NCBI GenBank assembly: GCA_902797695.1
Contig: CADBTW010000104.1
Coordinates: 1-62,404, forward strand
Source: an uncultured Sutterellaceae bacterium
GTDB taxonomy: Bacteria; Pseudomonadota; Gammaproteobacteria; Burkholderiales; Burkholderiaceae_F
DNA: 62,404 nt
Reading direction: 5' to 3'
Every line of letters starts with the position of its first letter. Positions within the stretch are counted from its first letter, which is position 1. The translations under genes were made by a program, and so were the position numbers. The notes beneath the pieces are model-generated. The model had not been told where the DNA came from. It saw nothing but the letters and a program-made list of their open reading frames with translations, and did not search any database. Below, piece after piece: positions 51,570 through 62,404 of this stretch.

Positions 51570-52223
51570 GTGAAAACTGATCCCCGCTATCCCCGCCTCC
51601 ACATCGTCGACCATCCTCTCGTGCAGCACAAGCTTTCACTGATGCGCGAGAAGAACTGCTCCACGAAGGATTTCCGCACGCTGCTTCACGAACTCACGAT
51701 GCTGATGGGCTACGAGCTCACGAGGGACCTGCCGCTTGAATACCACCCGATCGAGACTCCGGTCGCCCCGATGAACGCTCCCTTCATTGCGGGCAAGAAG
51801 CCTGTGGTCATTCCCGTGCTTCGGGCGGGGCTTGGCATGTCGGACGGGATCCTCGAGCTGATGCCTTCTGCCCGGGTCGGGCACATCGGGCTTTACCGAG
51901 ACGAGAACAAGCACCCGGTCGAATACCTTGTCCGGATGCCCCAGGAGCTCACGGACCGCCTCTGCATCATCACGGACCCGATGGTCGCGACCGGGAATTC
52001 CTCGGTTTACGCGGTGGACGTCCTCGTGCGCCGCGGCGTGAAGGAGGAGAACATCAAGTTTCTTTCCCTCGTCTCGGCCCCCGAGGGGATCGAGGTCTTC
52101 TTCAAGGCCCACCCGAATGTCGACCTCTATACGGCTTCGGTCGATGAGCGGCTGAACGAGAACGCCTACATCGTCCCGGGGCTTGGGGACGCAGGCGACC
52201 GGATTTTCGGCACGAAAATCTAG
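51570..52223 (+). CDS. upp: Uracil phosphoribosyltransferase
   Basis: Salvages uracil to UMP with PRPP. The 217-residue protein has the family PRPP loop as [14 protein letters not shown], the [29 protein letters not shown] block (landmark) and the C-terminal uracil-binding [16 protein letters not shown]. It starts with GTG at 51570, supported by AGGAG seven to eight bases upstream. It is a single-gene unit; no uracil permease lies beside it. Confidence 0.96.
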
Positions 52224-52244
52224 GCAAGAGAATTTTTTCTTGTT

Positions 52245-52312
52245 TTAAGGGATAACCCTTAAAATTGATCAAAAAACAGTCAATTGTTTAGGGTTATCAC
52301 TTATTTTTAACC
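52245..52312 (+). terminator. Long imperfect hairpin between upp and the cytochrome b gene
   Basis: GATAACCC (52251-52258) pairs with GGGTTATC (52291-52298). Inside it ATTGA pairs with TCAAT around an A-rich loop, and CTTATTTTT follows. Probably the upp terminator; the inner arms overlap FNR-like half-sites, so a regulatory role is also possible. Confidence 0.5.
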
Positions 52313-52474
52313 GCCGGCAAGCCTGTTCACCCCAAGTTTATTTGATATAGGTTAAATGTTGGGTGGGGGCCGGGGTGCAAAATGACGGCGACGGGCGGAA
52401 GCCCGGATGACTATAAGACAAGCGGAAGAGGAGAGAGGTCCGACTGCTCCGTTCCTCCGCATATGGAGATCTTC

Positions 52475-53281
52475 ATGCAACTCCCAGACAACGTACTCCG
52501 CGCCCATACTCCGTCCGCGGAAGACAACATCAACGGCGCCATCAACCTGAAGGACGCTCCCCGCCGCTCCAGGTGGACTGCCTGGTGCGACATTGCCCAG
52601 TCCGTGACCGGCGGCCTGCTCGCGATCTTCCTCTTCTGCCACATGGCGTTCACGAGCTCGATCCAGGTTTCCGAGGATCTCTTCTGGAACCTCGTCGCGA
52701 CCTCCGGCCTCACCTTCATTGGCGGCACGCCGCATGAATGGGCCCACGTGGTGTTCATCGGCGCGATCGGCCTCCTCGTCTGCATCCACGGGCTGTGCGC
52801 TCTTCGCCGCTTCCCGAGCAGCTATCACCAGTGCCGTGACATGGCAAAGCACGTTCGCCTCGTCCATCACTTCGACACCTCTCTGTGGGCCGTGCAGATT
52901 GTCACCGCCGTGATCCTCCTCATCTGCGTCTTCCCGCACATCATCTCGATGCTGACGAGCCCGTCCAACATCGGCCCGTGGCTCTCCGGGCTGCACGCCT
53001 ATCATGACGGCCTGCTCTACACCCTGATCTTCCTGATCGCCGCGGAAGTGCACGGCCTTGTCGGCCTCTACCGCGTCCTCGTGAAGTGGGGCGTCTGGAG
53101 CGGTGAGCGCGAAGGCCTCCGCCGCGTGATGCTCGTGATCACCGTCCTCATGATCTGCTGCGGCGCTGCCACCGCCTGGAAGTACTACAGCATCGGTGCC
53201 GCCCGTGCCGTGAGCGAGAATCCGTCCGCGCACTACACCCCGGTGCACCCCTGGTACGATCTTGACCAGATGAAGAACTAA
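52475..53281 (+). CDS. Quinol:fumarate reductase-type dihaem cytochrome b subunit
   Basis: Membrane subunit that anchors a fumarate reductase or succinate dehydrogenase and carries two b haems and the menaquinol site. The 268-residue protein has five membrane helices. His56, His105, His155 and His193 are spaced 49, 50 and 38, almost exactly as His44, 93, 143 and 182 of Wolinella succinogenes FrdC. Glu191, two before the last His, matches Wolinella Glu180 of the proton path. The ATG at 52475 has GGAG six bases upstream; upstream codons are less likely. It is alone: no frdA or frdB follows, and a terminator comes 30 nt after the stop. Codon bias is high. Confidence 0.88.
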   Translation: MQLPDNVLRAHTPSAEDNINGAINLKDAPRRSRWTAWCDIAQSVTGGLLAIFLFCHMAFTSSIQVSEDLFWNLVATSGLTFIGGTPHEWAHVVFIGAIGLLVCIHGLCALRRFPSSYHQCRDMAKHVRLVHHFDTSLWAVQIVTAVILLICVFPHIISMLTSPSNIGPWLSGLHAYHDGLLYTLIFLIAAEVHGLVGLYRVLVKWGVWSGEREGLRRVMLVITVLMICCGAATAWKYYSIGAARAVSENPSAHYTPVHPWYDLDQMKN

Positions 53282-53310
53282 GAGCCGAAGTCCGGTTCTG
53301 TGGTTTGAAG

Positions 53311-53336
53311 AAGCCCCGCGAAAGCGGGGCTTTTTT
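53311..53336 (+). terminator. Terminator after the cytochrome b gene
   Basis: AAGCCCCGC, GAAA loop, GCGGGGC, TTTTTT: a textbook intrinsic terminator. Confidence 0.92.
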
Positions 53337-53567
53337 GATATGTGCCTTGCGTGCGACCAAGGGGCGATGGAACCAAACGCGGACGACGGTGCGCAGGCGC
53401 GCGGCCGGGGCGAAGAGTGCCCGCCGCGTGGATGAATTCGCTGAAGACCCGAGCGGGCACGGGGGAGGCCTTATGTAATTCCGGGCAGTTGACAGGATGT
53501 TGGCAGGATGCCTATCCGCGCCTTCAGTTTGCAGGCAGTTTTCCCTAGGCGAAAAAACAGAAAAGTA

Positions 53568-53591
53568 ATACCTGTAAATAGGTATTTACAG
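53568..53591. promoter_or_regulatory. Nested inverted repeats upstream of dcuB
   Basis: Two overlapping dyads: AATACCT-N6-AGGTATT (53568-53587) and CTGTAAAT-N4-ATTTACAG (53572-53591). The arms overlap, so alternative pairings are possible. The binding factor is unknown. Confidence 0.55.
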
Positions 53592-53742
53592 ACCTGATTT
53601 TGGATGGCCATTCCGGTTTCTGATAGCTCAAAATAACTAGCCGCAACCGGCGTTATTAACAAACTTCTACCGACATCAGGGGAAAAGAGGAAGAGCCTGA
53701 TGCCAGCCGAACGATTCAGATACGGTATAGACCCTATAAAAA

Positions 53743-53756
53743 ATGATTTGTATCAA
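53743..53756 (+). promoter_or_regulatory. FNR box of dcuB
   Basis: ATGAT-TTGT-ATCAA differs from the FNR consensus TTGAT-N4-ATCAA at one position. It lies 130 nt before the dcuB ATG. If it activates from position -41.5, transcription would start near 53791. Confidence 0.7.
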
Positions 53757-53885
53757 AAGAATTGCCGAAATACCCGGGTAATCCCGGAATTTATGTCAAC
53801 GACTAGTCAATTTTCGTTACATAAGGATACCTCTTTGTGATAAAACAGCTCCGTCCTAATCATCTCGAAGTAGAGAGAGACAAAA

Positions 53886-55238
53886 ATGATCCCAACTGTA
53901 TTCTGGATAGAACTACTGGTCATCCTGATCTGCTTGTTCTATGGTGCGAGAAAGGGCGGCATGGCCCTGGGCCTCGTTTCTGGTATTGGCCTTCTGGTCC
54001 TCACCTTCGTCTTCCATGTGAAGCCGGGCACTCCGCCGGTCTCCGTGATTCTGACGATTCTCGCCGTGGTCATGGGTTCCGCCACGCTTCAGGCTTCCGG
54101 CGGTCTCGACTGCCTGCTGCAGATCGCTGAAAAGGCGCTCCGCTCCCGTCCCCGCCTCGTGGTGTACATCGCTCCGTACTGCGCCTGGATCCTGACGATC
54201 CTCTGCGGCACGGGCCACACCGTTTACACCCTTCTCCCGATTATTTACGACGTCGCGATCAAGACCGGCATTCGTCCGGAACGCCCGATGGCCGCTTCCA
54301 CCATCGCTTCCCAGATGGGCGTCATCTGCTCGCCGGCTTCCGTTGCCGTCGTGTCCGCTGTCGCGATTCTCGAAGGCCATGTCCTTCCGAACGGCTCTCC
54401 GGTCGACCTGCTCACGATCCTCGGCATCACGATCCCTGCGGGCTTTGTCGGCATCTTCGCTGAGGCCACCTTCTCGCTCTTCCGCGGCAAGGATCTGGAC
54501 AAGGATCCCGAGTTCCAGAAGCTGATCTCCGACCCCGAGCAGAAGCAGTACGTCTACGGCGACAGCATGACGCTGATCGGCAAGAAGTTCGCTGCGTCCC
54601 AGTGGCTCGCGCTCTGGATCTTCCTCGGCTCCGTTGCGATCGTTGCCGTTTTCGGCGCCTTCCCGGAACTCCGCCCGGTCTTCGGCAAGAAGTCCCTCTC
54701 GATGACCCTCGTCATCCAGATGATGATGCTCTGCGCCGGCGCCCTGATGGTGATCTTCTGCCGCACCCGTGCTGCTGACGTTGGCAAGAGCTCGGTGTTC
54801 CGCTCCGGTGCCGTGGCAATCGCCGCCGTGTACGGCGTCGCGTGGATGTCCGACTCCCTCTTCCAGGCTCACCTCCCCGCCCTGAAGGCGTCCCTCACCG
54901 GCGCTGTCCAGGCTTACCCCTGGCTCTACGCTGTGGTGATCCTGATCGTGTCCAAGTTCGTGAACTCCCAGGCTGCCGCCGTGGCGATCATTCTCCCGGT
55001 CGCCATTCAGGTGGGCGTTCCGACCGGCATCGCGGTGTCCATGATCTCCGCCTGCTACGGCTACTACATCCTGCCGACCTATCCGTCTGACCTTGCGGCT
55101 CTCCAGTTCGACCGCTCCGGCACGACCCACATCGGCAAGTTCGTGATCAACCACTCCTTCATCATTCCGGGCCTGATCGGCGTCATCACGGCGACCGTTG
55201 TCGGTACGCTTCTCGGCTTCGTCTACGGCTACATCTAG
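53886..55238 (+). CDS. dcuB: Anaerobic C4-dicarboxylate antiporter DcuB
   Basis: Exchanges fumarate, malate or aspartate for succinate across the inner membrane during fumarate respiration. The 450-residue protein resembles E. coli DcuB (446) along its whole length as I recall it. Shared segments are [66 protein letters not shown] and the near-identical [28 protein letters not shown] end (landmarks). It has 12-14 membrane segments. An FNR box and an unusual dyad precede it, a strong terminator follows, and codon use is highly biased. Confidence 0.94.
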
Positions 55239-58612: not shown

Positions 58613-60064
58613 ATGGCAGACACCAACGATTCCCTCGATCCCCTCCACGCAAAAAACAAGGCCTGGTCTGGCCGGTTCTCCGAGCCGGTTGCGGATTTCG
58701 TGCTCCGTTACACGGCTTCGGTCGGCTTTGACAAGCGCATGGCGAAAGCCGACATCGACGGATCCCTCGCCCATGCGGCGATGCTCGCGAAGGCAGGCGT
58801 CATTTCCCAGAAGGACCTTGAGGACATTCGCCGCGGGATGGCCCAGATCCGCGAGGAAATCCGCTCGGGGAAGTTCGAGTGGAAGCTTGAGCTCGAGGAC
58901 GTGCACCTCAACATCGAAGCGCGCCTCACGGCGCTGATCGGCGACGCCGGGAAGCGCCTCCACACCGGCCGCTCGCGGAACGACCAGGTTGCGACCGACC
59001 TGAGGCTCTACCTCCGGGACGAAATCGACGTGATCACATTCCAGCTGAACGAGCTTCAGAAGGTGCTCGTGCGTCTCGCGGAAAACGAGGCCGACACCGC
59101 GATGCCGGGCTTCACCCACATGCAGGTCGCCCAGCCGGTGACCTTCGGGCATCACATGCTCGCCTATGCCGAAATGTTCGAGCGCGACCATGAGCGGATG
59201 CTCGACCTCCGGCATCGCGTGAATCGCTCGCCGCTCGGCGCGGCGGCACTTGCCGGCACCACCTACCCGATTGACCGCGAATATTCGGCGAAGCTCCTCG
59301 GGTTCGAGGGCGTCATGCAGAACTCTCTTGACAGCGTTTCCGACCGCGACTACGGCGTTGAATTCCTTGCCGCGGCGAGCCTCATCATGATCCATATCTC
59401 GAGGCTTTCCGAGGAACTCGTCTACTGGATGAGCCAGCGCTTCAACTTCATCCATCTTCCGGACCGCTTCACGACCGGCTCGTCCATCATGCCGCAGAAG
59501 AAGAACCCGGACGTTCCCGAAACCGCCCGCGGCAAGGCCGCGCGCGTGATCGGCGAGCTCGCCCAGTTCTGCGTCCTCGTGAAGGGGCTTCCGCTCGCTT
59601 ACAACAAGGACCTTCAGGAAGACAAGGAGCCGGTGTTCGACGCGATCGACACGGTCCGCGACACGCTTCACGCCTTCATCGAGATGATGCCCGGGGTCGA
59701 GCCCCAGAGGGACGAGCTTCGGGCGGCCTGCCACGCGGGCTACCCGACCGCGACCGACCTCGCCGACTATCTGGTCCGTAAGGGCGTTCCTTTCCGTTCC
59801 GCCCACGACATCGTCGGGCGCGTCGTTCGCCGCGCGGTGGAGATGAAGGTCGGGCTCCACGAGATGCCGCTTGACGTCCTCCGTTCGTTCAGCGACAAGA
59901 TCGGGGAGGACGTGTACGAGAGCCTGACGCTTGAAGGCGCCCTGAACGCGAGGAACCACACGGGCGGAACCGCGCCGGCCCAGGTCCGTCGTCAGGTTGG
60001 GCTCTGGAAGGAGCTCTTCGCGCGGCGCGAGAAGGATCCTTCCGCGGGCGAGTACGCGAGGTAG
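58613..60064 (+). CDS. argH: Argininosuccinate lyase
   Basis: Last step of arginine synthesis: splits argininosuccinate to arginine and fumarate. The 483-residue protein starts the family domain at [10 protein letters not shown], has [33 protein letters not shown] with the catalytic His, and the mobile signature [12 protein letters not shown]. The ATG at 58613 has AGGTGGG six to seven bases upstream; a GTG at 58601 lies inside that site. The fumarate it releases could feed fumarate respiration. Confidence 0.97.
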
Positions 60065-60197
60065 CCTGAAGCGGGGAGACTTCTGGCGCGCGGGGTCCCG
60101 GCGCCGGAAGGCCCTGAAGGCACCGTCCGCGGGAGCCGGAAGCTTCCCGCCCTCGGTGCCTTTCCTTTTTGCAACACAGGTTTTTTGAGGTACTTTT

Positions 60198-60791
60198 ATG
60201 CAGATCATGGTTCGCGACGCCTACGCGTTCGGCGATGACGGCGGCGAAGACGAGGACCTTGGCCCGAGCAAGTCCGAGGTGAAGCGCCGGATGCTGGCGC
60301 TTCAGGCGCTCGGGAAGGAGCTCACCGGGCTCTCGGAGGAAGTGCTAGGGAAGCTTCCGCTTTCCGAGGAAGTGCTGGAGGCCGTCCGCAGCTACCAGAA
60401 GATCCGGACGTTCAAGGCAAGGCAGCGCGAGGTGCAGCACATCGGAAAGCTCCTGAGGCAGGCGGACGCCGACGCGATCCGCAAGGCGATCGCGGACGCG
60501 GAGGGGACGAGTTCCGACATGGTTGCGATCCAGCACCAGTGTGAACGGCTGCGGGACGAGCTCCTTGCCTCCGACGCTCCTCTCACGGATCTCATGAACC
60601 GGTTCCCCGGGATCGATCTCCAGAAGATCCGCCAGTCGGTCCGTTCGGCCCGCCGCGAGGCCGCGAAGGAAGATCCCGCGAAACGGAATCCTAAGTTCTC
60701 CCGCGAGATCTACAGGATGCTGCACGAAGCCCTGGTCGAGGATTACCGGAACCGGCAGGGCGCAGGAAAGGAAATGGGGGAAGAGGAATGA
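60198..60791 (+). CDS. darP: Ribosome-associated protein DarP (YjgA/DUF615)
   Basis: Late 50S-assembly factor that binds the pre-50S particle. The 197-residue protein is the DUF615 type: an acidic N terminus, then PSKSEVKRRMLALQALGKEL, KIRTFKARQREVQHIGKLLR, and a C-terminal basic stretch ending in KFSREIYRMLHEAL (landmarks). Mostly helical. Its stop overlaps the next start by four bases (ATGA). darP followed by mogA is the order I know from Burkholderia. Confidence 0.92.
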   Translation: MQIMVRDAYAFGDDGGEDEDLGPSKSEVKRRMLALQALGKELTGLSEEVLGKLPLSEEVLEAVRSYQKIRTFKARQREVQHIGKLLRQADADAIRKAIADAEGTSSDMVAIQHQCERLRDELLASDAPLTDLMNRFPGIDLQKIRQSVRSARREAAKEDPAKRNPKFSREIYRMLHEALVEDYRNRQGAGKEMGEEE

Positions 60792-62242
60792 CCGAAGGCG
60801 AAGAAGGAATCCGGATCGGGCTGGTTTCCGTTTCCGACCGCGCGAGCAGCGGCGTCTATGAGGACAAGGGGATCCCCGCGCTCAGGGACTGGTGCCTCAG
60901 GGCGATCGCGACCCCGGTCGAGACGGTCGAGCGCCTGATTCCGGACGATCGTTTCACGATCGAGAAGACCCTGCGGGAACTGGTTGACGACGAACGGTGC
61001 GACCTCGTCCTTACGACAGGCGGCACGGGGCCGTCGCGGCGCGACGTGACGCCAGAGGCGACCCTCGCGGTGTCGACTCGGGAGCTTCCCGGCTTCGGCG
61101 AGCAGATGAGGGCGATTTCGCTCCGCTTCGTCCCGACCGCGATCCTTTCCAGGCAGGTGGGAGCCCTTCGGGAAATTCCTGACCACGCCGCGCTCATCAT
61201 CAACCTTCCTGGGCAGCCGAAGGCAATCGCGGAAACGCTCGGGGGGCTGAGGAACGCCGAGGGCCGGGTCGAGGTGCCCGGGATTTTTGCCGCCGTTCCC
61301 TACTGCATCGACCTGATTGGGGGCCCCTACATCGAAACGAACCCGGACGTCTGCAAGGCGTTCCGTCCGAAGTCCGCGAGGCGGAAGCCTGAAGCCCAGG
61401 CGGGGAACAAGGGCCGTGACGACAAGTCAGTGGATAAGCCTGCCTCCGAGCCTCTTGCCGAAAACGCGCCCCGCGAGCCTGAGCCCGCCCGGAAGCCCTT
61501 TGTCGACCCGGCGCCGGTGAGGATCCCATCCGGCCGCCCGGTTGAGGTGGAGAAGGACGAGGAGCCCCTCGAAACCTTTGAAATCGCCTCGGTCGAATCG
61601 AGCCTGCCTCCGCCCTGCACCGTCATCTGGCTGGGAAGCATGGCGATGGACGTGCACGCCTTCACGGAGCTTCCGTCGCAGGTCCTCTCATTCGGGGGGC
61701 CTGCCGCGCGGTACGTCATGGTGAACGCCCCGATGGGCGAGCTTTCAGCCGATCCCGGGAAGCCCGTCCGTGCCTGGTACGACTTTCCGGGGAACGGACT
61801 TGTCGACACCGAGGATCTCCCGGGGATACGCCGGAGCGCGAAGCGGATCAGCCGTCTTATTGACCGGATTTCCGCGAAAGGCATGCCGAGGCAGCGGATT
61901 TTCCTCGCAGGATTCTCCCAGGGAGCTGCGATGGCGCTCTACACGGGGCTCCACGAAGACCTGTCGCTTGCCGGCATCGTCGCGCTTTCGGGCTATCTGC
62001 CGCTTGCCCGGTCCCTTCCTCAGGAAATCGGGCTCGGGGGCCGCGCTACACCGGTCTTCATGGGGCACGGGGCCTTCGATGACGTTGTCCCCCTGCCTTA
62101 CGCCCGGCAGTCTGCCGAGATCATCAGCCGCTGCGGTTCGGAGGTTTTCTGGCGCGAATACAACGCCGAGCACGATTTCGGGGACGATGCCGTGCGCGAC
62201 ATGGCGCGCTTCATGAGGAACGCGGTCGCGAAGGGGGCGTAG
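60788..62242 (+). CDS. Molybdopterin adenylyltransferase MogA fused to a carboxylesterase domain
   Basis: Residues 5 to about 185 are MogA, which activates molybdopterin by adenylylation before molybdenum insertion. Landmarks are LVSVSDRASSGVYEDKG, LTTGGTGPSRRDVTPEA (about 75-91), INLPGQPKAIAETL and FAAVPYCIDLIGG. A charged Pro/Glu/Lys-rich linker (about 190-275) follows. Residues 275-484 form a phospholipase/carboxylesterase-type alpha/beta hydrolase with Ser377 in GFSQGAAMAL, Asp432 in GAFDDVVP and His462 in AEHDF, a plausible triad. The usual HGLGA oxyanion strand is altered (IWLGSMAMD). Frame and codon use continue through the join, so this is not an assembly artefact on its face. Standalone MogA is about 195 residues. 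Confidence 0.88.
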   Translation: MTEGEEGIRIGLVSVSDRASSGVYEDKGIPALRDWCLRAIATPVETVERLIPDDRFTIEKTLRELVDDERCDLVLTTGGTGPSRRDVTPEATLAVSTRELPGFGEQMRAISLRFVPTAILSRQVGALREIPDHAALIINLPGQPKAIAETLGGLRNAEGRVEVPGIFAAVPYCIDLIGGPYIETNPDVCKAFRPKSARRKPEAQAGNKGRDDKSVDKPASEPLAENAPREPEPARKPFVDPAPVRIPSGRPVEVEKDEEPLETFEIASVESSLPPPCTVIWLGSMAMDVHAFTELPSQVLSFGGPAARYVMVNAPMGELSADPGKPVRAWYDFPGNGLVDTEDLPGIRRSAKRISRLIDRISAKGMPRQRIFLAGFSQGAAMALYTGLHEDLSLAGIVALSGYLPLARSLPQEIGLGGRATPVFMGHGAFDDVVPLPYARQSAEIISRCGSEVFWREYNAEHDFGDDAVRDMARFMRNAVAKGA

Positions 62243-62285
62243 AGGATCGCGGGCTTTCGTTCCTCTCGAGGGAGAAGAAGCCCCA

Positions 62286-62316
62286 GGGCTCCGATGCGCG
62301 CACCGGAGCCCGTCTT
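62286..62316 (+). terminator. Terminator after the mogA fusion gene
   Basis: GGGCTCCG, ten-base loop, CGGAGCCC, then GTCTTTT. Confidence 0.65.
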
Positions 62317-62334
62317 TTGGGACTGCTCGGGAAA

Positions 62335-62374
62335 CGAAAAAACCCGGAACCGTCATGCGGTTCCGGGTTTTTGG
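62335..62374. terminator. Bidirectional terminator before the edge tRNA
   Basis: AAAAAACCCGGAACCG, TCATG loop, CGGTTCCGGGTTTTT. It ends the - strand tRNA transcript and backs up the + strand terminator. Confidence 0.85.
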
Positions 62375-62379
62375 AATTT

Positions 62380-62404
62380 TGGTGGAGAAGAGGAGGATCG
62401 AACT
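62380..62404 (-). tRNA. 3' end of a tRNA gene cut by the window edge
   Basis: On the - strand the visible bases are part of the T arm (AGTTCGATC with CTCCT as the 3' stem), the acceptor strand CTTCTCC, discriminator A and an encoded CCA. The anticodon lies outside the window, so I do not name the amino acid. Confidence 0.8.

Follow-up and report, generated by a model that had tools for sequence, protein, structure and literature searches.

MogA is a trimer, and the E. coli protein carries two aspartates, Asp49 and Asp82, which we take to be catalytic; the COG1058 domain of CinA is presumably kin to the MoCF domain. The eukaryotic MogA-MoeA fusions gephyrin, Cnx1 and NIT-9 combine, as described in the available parts of the sources (PMC11489736, PMC11733289), a MogA-type domain with a variable linker and a second enzyme, and in CinA and the COG1058-PncC fusions a MoCF-type domain is joined to a hydrolase, likewise according to the available parts of the reports (PMC3680494, PMC3855486). 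A survey of molybdenum-related domain fusions treats, in the part covered, fusions of molybdoenzymes, none of them with an esterase (PMC6147048).

The locus described here shares features with both sets of proteins, in that a MogA domain is followed in one polypeptide by a variable linker and a hydrolase. It lies near the end of the window, by which we mean the whole stretch of 62,404 nucleotides that was analyzed. Each half belongs to a known family; searches aimed at the pair in the open-access literature (most subscription journals lie outside it) yielded no description of the fusion, which is thus apparently undescribed there, as the original prediction had supposed.

Architecture of the fusion gene

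The features of the locus are as follows.

60198..60791, plus strand: darP (yjgA), ribosome maturation factor, directly upstream of the fusion (PF04751, 151.0 bits; NF003593, 149.4 bits, cut-off 70)
60788..62242, plus strand: mogA-esterase fusion gene, 484 aa, one open frame
60809..61381, plus strand: MogA domain, residues 8-198 (NF006932; phmmer to 1di6)
61382..61591, plus strand: linker, about residues 199-268 (~70 aa; alignment)
61592..62239, plus strand: Abhydrolase_2 carboxylesterase domain, about residues 269-484 (PF02230)
61634..61648, plus strand: altered oxyanion-side strand, GSMAM for HGLGA, residues 283-287 (alignment, census of 106 esterases)
61910..61924, plus strand: nucleophile elbow GFSQG, residues 375-379, with Ser377 and Gln378 (invariant in 15 fused proteins)
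62078..62080, plus strand: Asp431, predicted catalytic acid (invariant in 15/15 fused proteins; Asp in 106/106 esterase rows)
62171..62173, plus strand: His462, predicted catalytic histidine (invariant in 15/15 fused proteins; His in 106/106 esterase rows)

The ATG of the fusion gene overlaps the darP stop by 4 bases, an argininosuccinate lyase gene precedes darP, and the fusion frame is the final protein gene of the window ahead of the contig end; darP had been named as the preceding gene from the outset, and the two profile matches upstream of the fusion start bear this out. Between the gene and the contig end, a hairpin flanked by A and T tails (62338-62372) resembles a two-way terminator, as read from the letters (the scan of positions 59900-62404 does not list it), and an apparent tRNA 3' end on the minus strand (62380-62404; read from the letters, with no ARAGORN call) is cut by the contig end. 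Elsewhere in the window, positions 52001-54000 have a G+C content of 0.560, below that of the other sampled stretches (0.606-0.651).

The N-terminal half is a MogA domain: MoCF_biosynth (Pfam) matches residues 12-151 (85.1 bits, cut-off 26.6), the MogA equivalog NF006932 (NCBIfam) is passed over residues 7-200 with 312.7 bits versus a cut-off of 158, and phmmer comparison with E. coli MogA (1di6) gave an E value of 2e-82. The domain extends to about residue 198, beyond the end at about residue 185 given in the original prediction. As in MogA proteins (NF006932; E. coli 1di6), the domain is full-length and both aspartates are present, Asp53 and Asp86 of the fusion aligning with Asp49 and Asp82 of the E. 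coli protein and being invariant in all 15 aligned fused proteins. The linker that follows is, as judged by eye, rich in Pro, Glu and Lys, and neither its length nor its sequence is conserved in the alignment of fused proteins; when the window protein was compared with two relatives from its genus, linker identity was 34-38% versus 82-87% for the MogA domain. An internal start that would yield a free esterase was considered and rejected, as a sigma-70-type scan of positions 59900-62404 gave no sigma-70-like promoter match and the alignment of fused proteins, inspected by eye, has no conserved Met in the linker.

The C-terminal half is matched by Abhydrolase_2 (PF02230) over residues 305-477 (106.3 bits, cut-off 23), and the solved structures closest to it in sequence belong to acyl-protein thioesterase 1 and to bacterial carboxylesterases. 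The catalytic triad had been proposed as Ser377-Asp432-His462; Ser377 and His462 stand, both being invariant in 15/15 fused proteins, but the acid is the invariant Asp431, since residue 432 varies. With both domain profiles above their cut-offs in one open frame, the central claim that a single 484-residue protein is encoded holds for the window, and a fused frame recurs in all five genomes of the genus examined.

Distribution and origin of the fusion

The fused frame is present in all five genomes of the window's genus (g1); the four other proteins share 65-69% identity with the window protein, and their frames contain no internal stop. Across the family, both domains occur in one frame in 31 of 67 genomes belonging to six genera, Sutterella included (g1, 5/5; g10, 11/12; g16, 9/10; g5, 3/3; g13, 2/2; g15, 1/1), and darP lies just upstream of the fusion in all 31. 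Two of the checks proposed at the start, conservation of the fused domain across the genus and a search for other proteins with both domains in the same order, came out positive. The matches to both domains are near full length in 29 of the 31 fused genomes (exceptions, G083 and G087). In the single g16 exception (G069) the gene is cut by a contig end, and the g10 exception (G081) carries a frameshift.

Among 20 genomes tested for PF02230, 15 have a single match, including 5/5 of the window's genus; further matches are weak in four genomes, and G008 has a true second copy. This copy, in a genome of a fused genus, is a diverged Abhydrolase_2 gene at positions 85-834 of locus L061 (127.7 bits).

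The original prediction regarded the esterase as a lineage-specific addition, which does not agree with the neighborhood of mogA in relatives. The esterase is a separate gene immediately behind mogA in 11 further genomes of the family, and the same layout was seen in the match list of a twelfth (G015). In a tally of 45 other families of the order, with one genome per family (f1 and the families f16, f17, f30, f40 and f41, whose genome looked at gave no MogA match, stand outside it), the esterase is directly adjacent to mogA in 14, with one more pair split at a contig end; it lies within about 1-2 kb in 5 and at another genomic site in 4. For the other 21, the examined stretch yielded no esterase, the search being genome-wide (E ≤ 0.001) for 6 of them and covering the fetched stretch for the rest. 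Among the 80 best named loci (80 confirmed of at least 583), a set biased towards pairs, 2 are fused, 33 have adjacent genes (including Massilia, Herminiimonas, Undibacterium, Pigmentiphaga and Silvimonas), 8 have the esterase near and 37 are without it; of the same 80, 63 have darP no more than 700 bases ahead of the MogA domain, and in 16 darP was not found. As the esterase already stands behind mogA as a separate gene in relatives, the joining alone is lineage-specific: the esterase is an old neighbor of mogA, and the new event is the fusion. A recent gain of a foreign esterase was rejected on the same ground.

Such a pair could be joined by loss of the intervening stop, since the esterase is in the reading frame of mogA in 23 of 61 distinct adjacent pairs (67 listed, minus the frameshifted G081 and five loci duplicating a genome). 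In one genome (G059, locus L053, 2181-3466), the esterase comes immediately after darP, both on one strand, and mogA lies elsewhere on the same contig, darP and the esterase thus remaining neighbors without mogA between them.

As for the number of joining events, the esterase tree places the fused copies together with the esterases of genus g8 in one group versus all others (SH-aLRT 98; 98.7 with fewer rows), the g8 esterases sitting on a long branch. The fused MogA halves group together in the best MogA tree with a weak support of 71, and a tree constrained to group the fused esterases to the exclusion of g8 could not be rejected (p-AU 0.657). The simplest history is probably a single event in which two neighboring genes were joined, with g8 perhaps having branched off before the fusion or having lost the MogA half later; there may also have been two independent fusions, one in g5, g13 and g15, with a short linker, and one in g1, g10 and g16, with a long linker. 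The esterase tree and census comprise 106 rows, from which G036 and G083, being cut or short, seven named loci duplicating a genome, the second copies G008b, G034b, G066b and G077b, and 15 close outgroup rows were left out. The MogA tree comprises 126 rows, 62 of which were used in the run that gave the support of 71; G087, G006, others removed by hand or too short, and about three in four named loci were left out of it.

The esterase in genomes lacking cofactor markers

We propose that the fusion is a two-enzyme polypeptide that arose from joined neighbors of an old darP-mogA-esterase row and whose halves most likely work independently, a reading that we consider probable. Judging by family membership and conserved residues, the N-terminal half would be a normal MogA that adenylylates molybdopterin, and the C-terminal half, the genome's sole Abhydrolase_2 serine esterase, would hydrolyze a carboxyl- or thioester by means of Ser377-His462-Asp431. 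The fast-evolving linker would act as a mere tether, and fusion would fix the ratio of the two halves and place esterases on MogA oligomers.

One alternative is a functional coupling. The esterase would then either belong to the molybdenum-cofactor pathway or act upon it, its target being, for example, a molybdopterin-derived ester, a carrier or a modified Moco enzyme, with the step channeled by the fusion. The adjacency of mogA and esterase in 14 of the 45 other families (plus the pair on a split contig) speaks for it, as do the purifying selection on both halves described below and the persistence of the fused gene in six genera; such lasting adjacency and fusion would equally be expected from a functional link. 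Against it stands the pattern of loss. All nine g8 genomes keep an esterase of the fused group and have no match to PF06463 (MoaA C-terminal), PF00994 (MoCF), PF01568 (Molydop_binding) or PF01967 (MoaC); three of them are 97-98% complete and six 75-93%. Likewise, G051, from another family, has no match to any of these four profiles, though its esterase is present, bringing to 10 the genomes in which the esterase is kept without the four cofactor markers. MoeA was covered in these searches only through PF00994. Conversely, six one-per-family genomes that have MogA (G037, G047, G050, G053, G054 and G055) gave no esterase match genome-wide at E ≤ 0.001. The window genome itself retains parts of the pathway, namely MoaA, MoaC, two further MoCF proteins (PF00994 matches in frames of their own, 427 and 473 aa long) and seven Molydop_binding matches.

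At the four g8 loci examined (L056-L058 and L173), the esterase occupies one shared site away from darP, and next to it in L058 lie genes for a low-molecular-weight phosphatase and an MFS transporter. Given this other locus and the long branch, the g8 esterase may have changed its job.

A second line of evidence against coupling comes from one Sutterella-group (g10) genome, G087, in which the MogA half has decayed inside an intact fusion frame.

L165, 1863-3239: fusion of G087 with decayed MogA half (NF006932 score, alignment)

Its MogA half scores 64.8 bits with NF006932 versus the cut-off of 158 and keeps 63 of 156 positions that are identical in four sister proteins, a further 28 falling in gaps; in the esterase half, 89 of 101 such positions are retained. 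Three-way Nei-Gojobori estimates for the G087 branch gave a dN/dS of about 1.1 for MogA and 0.42 for the esterase, rough values as synonymous sites are near saturation. The MogA half has three gaps in the protein alignment, but the frame is kept and free of stops, for which the neutral chance is 0.03-0.08; on a plain reading, translation of the esterase through this frame appears to be what keeps it open. G087 has no match to PF06463 or PF01967 and none to PF00994 outside the fusion (a profile that should also reveal an ordinary MoeA); it is a single genome, 89% complete, with one PF01568 match remaining, so that its cofactor loss is not clean.

Taken together, the pattern of loss speaks against a coupling of the two activities, which we regard as unlikely. 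The esterase half appears to have a separate job, because it survives where cofactor markers are missing, and for the same reason the earlier suggestion that it processes a molybdopterin ester is disfavored. A bolder form of the coupling idea, which we offer as a speculation with little chance of being right, is that the esterase is an unrecognized partner of Moco synthesis in Betaproteobacteria, with an ester linked to molybdopterin or an acylated protein of the Moco pathway as its target; channeling of this step would then be the role of the fusion, the rebuilt oxyanion strand of the window's genus would be a specialized site, and the lineages without the cofactor would have switched substrate.

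The altered strand, frame integrity and comparison with described systems

Within our preferred reading of two independently working enzymes, the esterase of the window's genus calls for separate consideration. The original prediction pointed to an altered HGLGA strand and to a changed or lost activity. The alteration is present and confined to the genus: the HG before the oxyanion residue is replaced in 5/5 genus rows (GS in the window, GG in the four relatives) and kept in 100 of 101 non-genus esterase rows, the one other row having a gap there. At the oxyanion position, 24 rows have Met (23 besides the window) and 81 have Leu, and Met is therefore not unusual.

These changes could mean that catalysis has been lost in the genus and that the domain serves as a binding or scaffolding part. 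Besides the replaced HG, two observations on the window protein fit such a loss: its match to the Pfam profile starts only at position 41, and its esterase dN/dS versus two genus relatives (0.22 and 0.31) falls about at the upper end of the range of other fused pairs or slightly beyond it (0.02-0.25 for the seven pairs that could be computed in other fused genera, excluding G087). However, the four genus relatives match the profile from position 11-12, two close pairs within the genus have esterase dN/dS values of 0.06 and 0.19, and the active-site Ser, Asp, His and Gln are all kept in 5/5 genus rows. Throughout the census, the three triad residues are present in 106/106 rows and the oxyanion Gln in 105/106, with Met in the remaining row. 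Moreover, the available part of a report on Abhydrolase_2 describes an oxyanion hole built from backbone nitrogens, with Y, W, V, L or S at the residue (PMC5493697). Purifying selection acts on both halves. As the triad and purifying selection persist, a change of activity is more likely than its loss; of the two outcomes envisaged, simple loss has the kept triad and the pairwise esterase dN/dS of 0.06-0.31 against it, and we judge lost catalysis to be quite improbable. On sequence grounds, the esterase of the genus is probably still a hydrolase, perhaps with an altered preference and slightly relaxed in the window species.

The original prediction named a stop or frameshift in the linker of relatives as the observation to look for against a single protein. 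Two of the 12 g10 (Sutterella-group) genomes have a broken fusion gene, and the breaks lie in the esterase: the frameshift of G081 (locus L183) is in the first esterase strand, outside the linker, and G083 (locus L153; counted as fused) has an in-frame stop inside the esterase, beside the catalytic serine. A further reading would attribute the long frame to faulty assembly or annotation, or have it split into two proteins in the cell. These two breaks lend it something, but we hold it to be very improbable, as the fused frame recurs in six genera, is unbroken in 5/5 genus genomes and 25 of the 26 other fused family genomes (exception, G083), is broken in G081 at a site other than the linker, and is stop-free even through the neutral-looking MogA half of G087.

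Gene fusion is widely taken as a hint of shared function, for which the family tree described here offers a natural test, and an esterase kept without cofactor markers, together with MogA decay inside one frame, makes a useful warning example. The fusion is also a tractable two-enzyme protein, and the genus-specific change beside the oxyanion hole poses a small, directly testable question on Abhydrolase_2 catalysis.

Compared with E. coli MogA, the window protein differs in carrying a linker and an esterase at its C terminus. Like other PF02230 enzymes (acyl-protein thioesterase 1, P. fluorescens esterase II 1auo, PA3859 3cn9, FTT258 4f21 and PE8 5dwd), it has the GFSQG elbow, the Ser-Asp-His triad and the oxyanion Gln; unlike them, it has GS for HG and an oxyanion Met for Leu, and is fused behind MogA. 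In contrast to CinA and the COG1058-PncC fusions, in which, in the available parts of the reports, the hydrolase is a different one, the setting is NAD recycling and COG1058 is a pyrophosphatase, the N-terminal partner here is MogA. Finally, the second domain of gephyrin-type proteins is MoeA, whereas the C-terminal half here is a PF02230 domain: as far as the available parts of the sources go, the partner in gephyrin, Cnx1 and NIT-9 is the next enzyme of the pathway, and in the window protein it is an esterase of a kind that persists where the pathway seems to have been lost.
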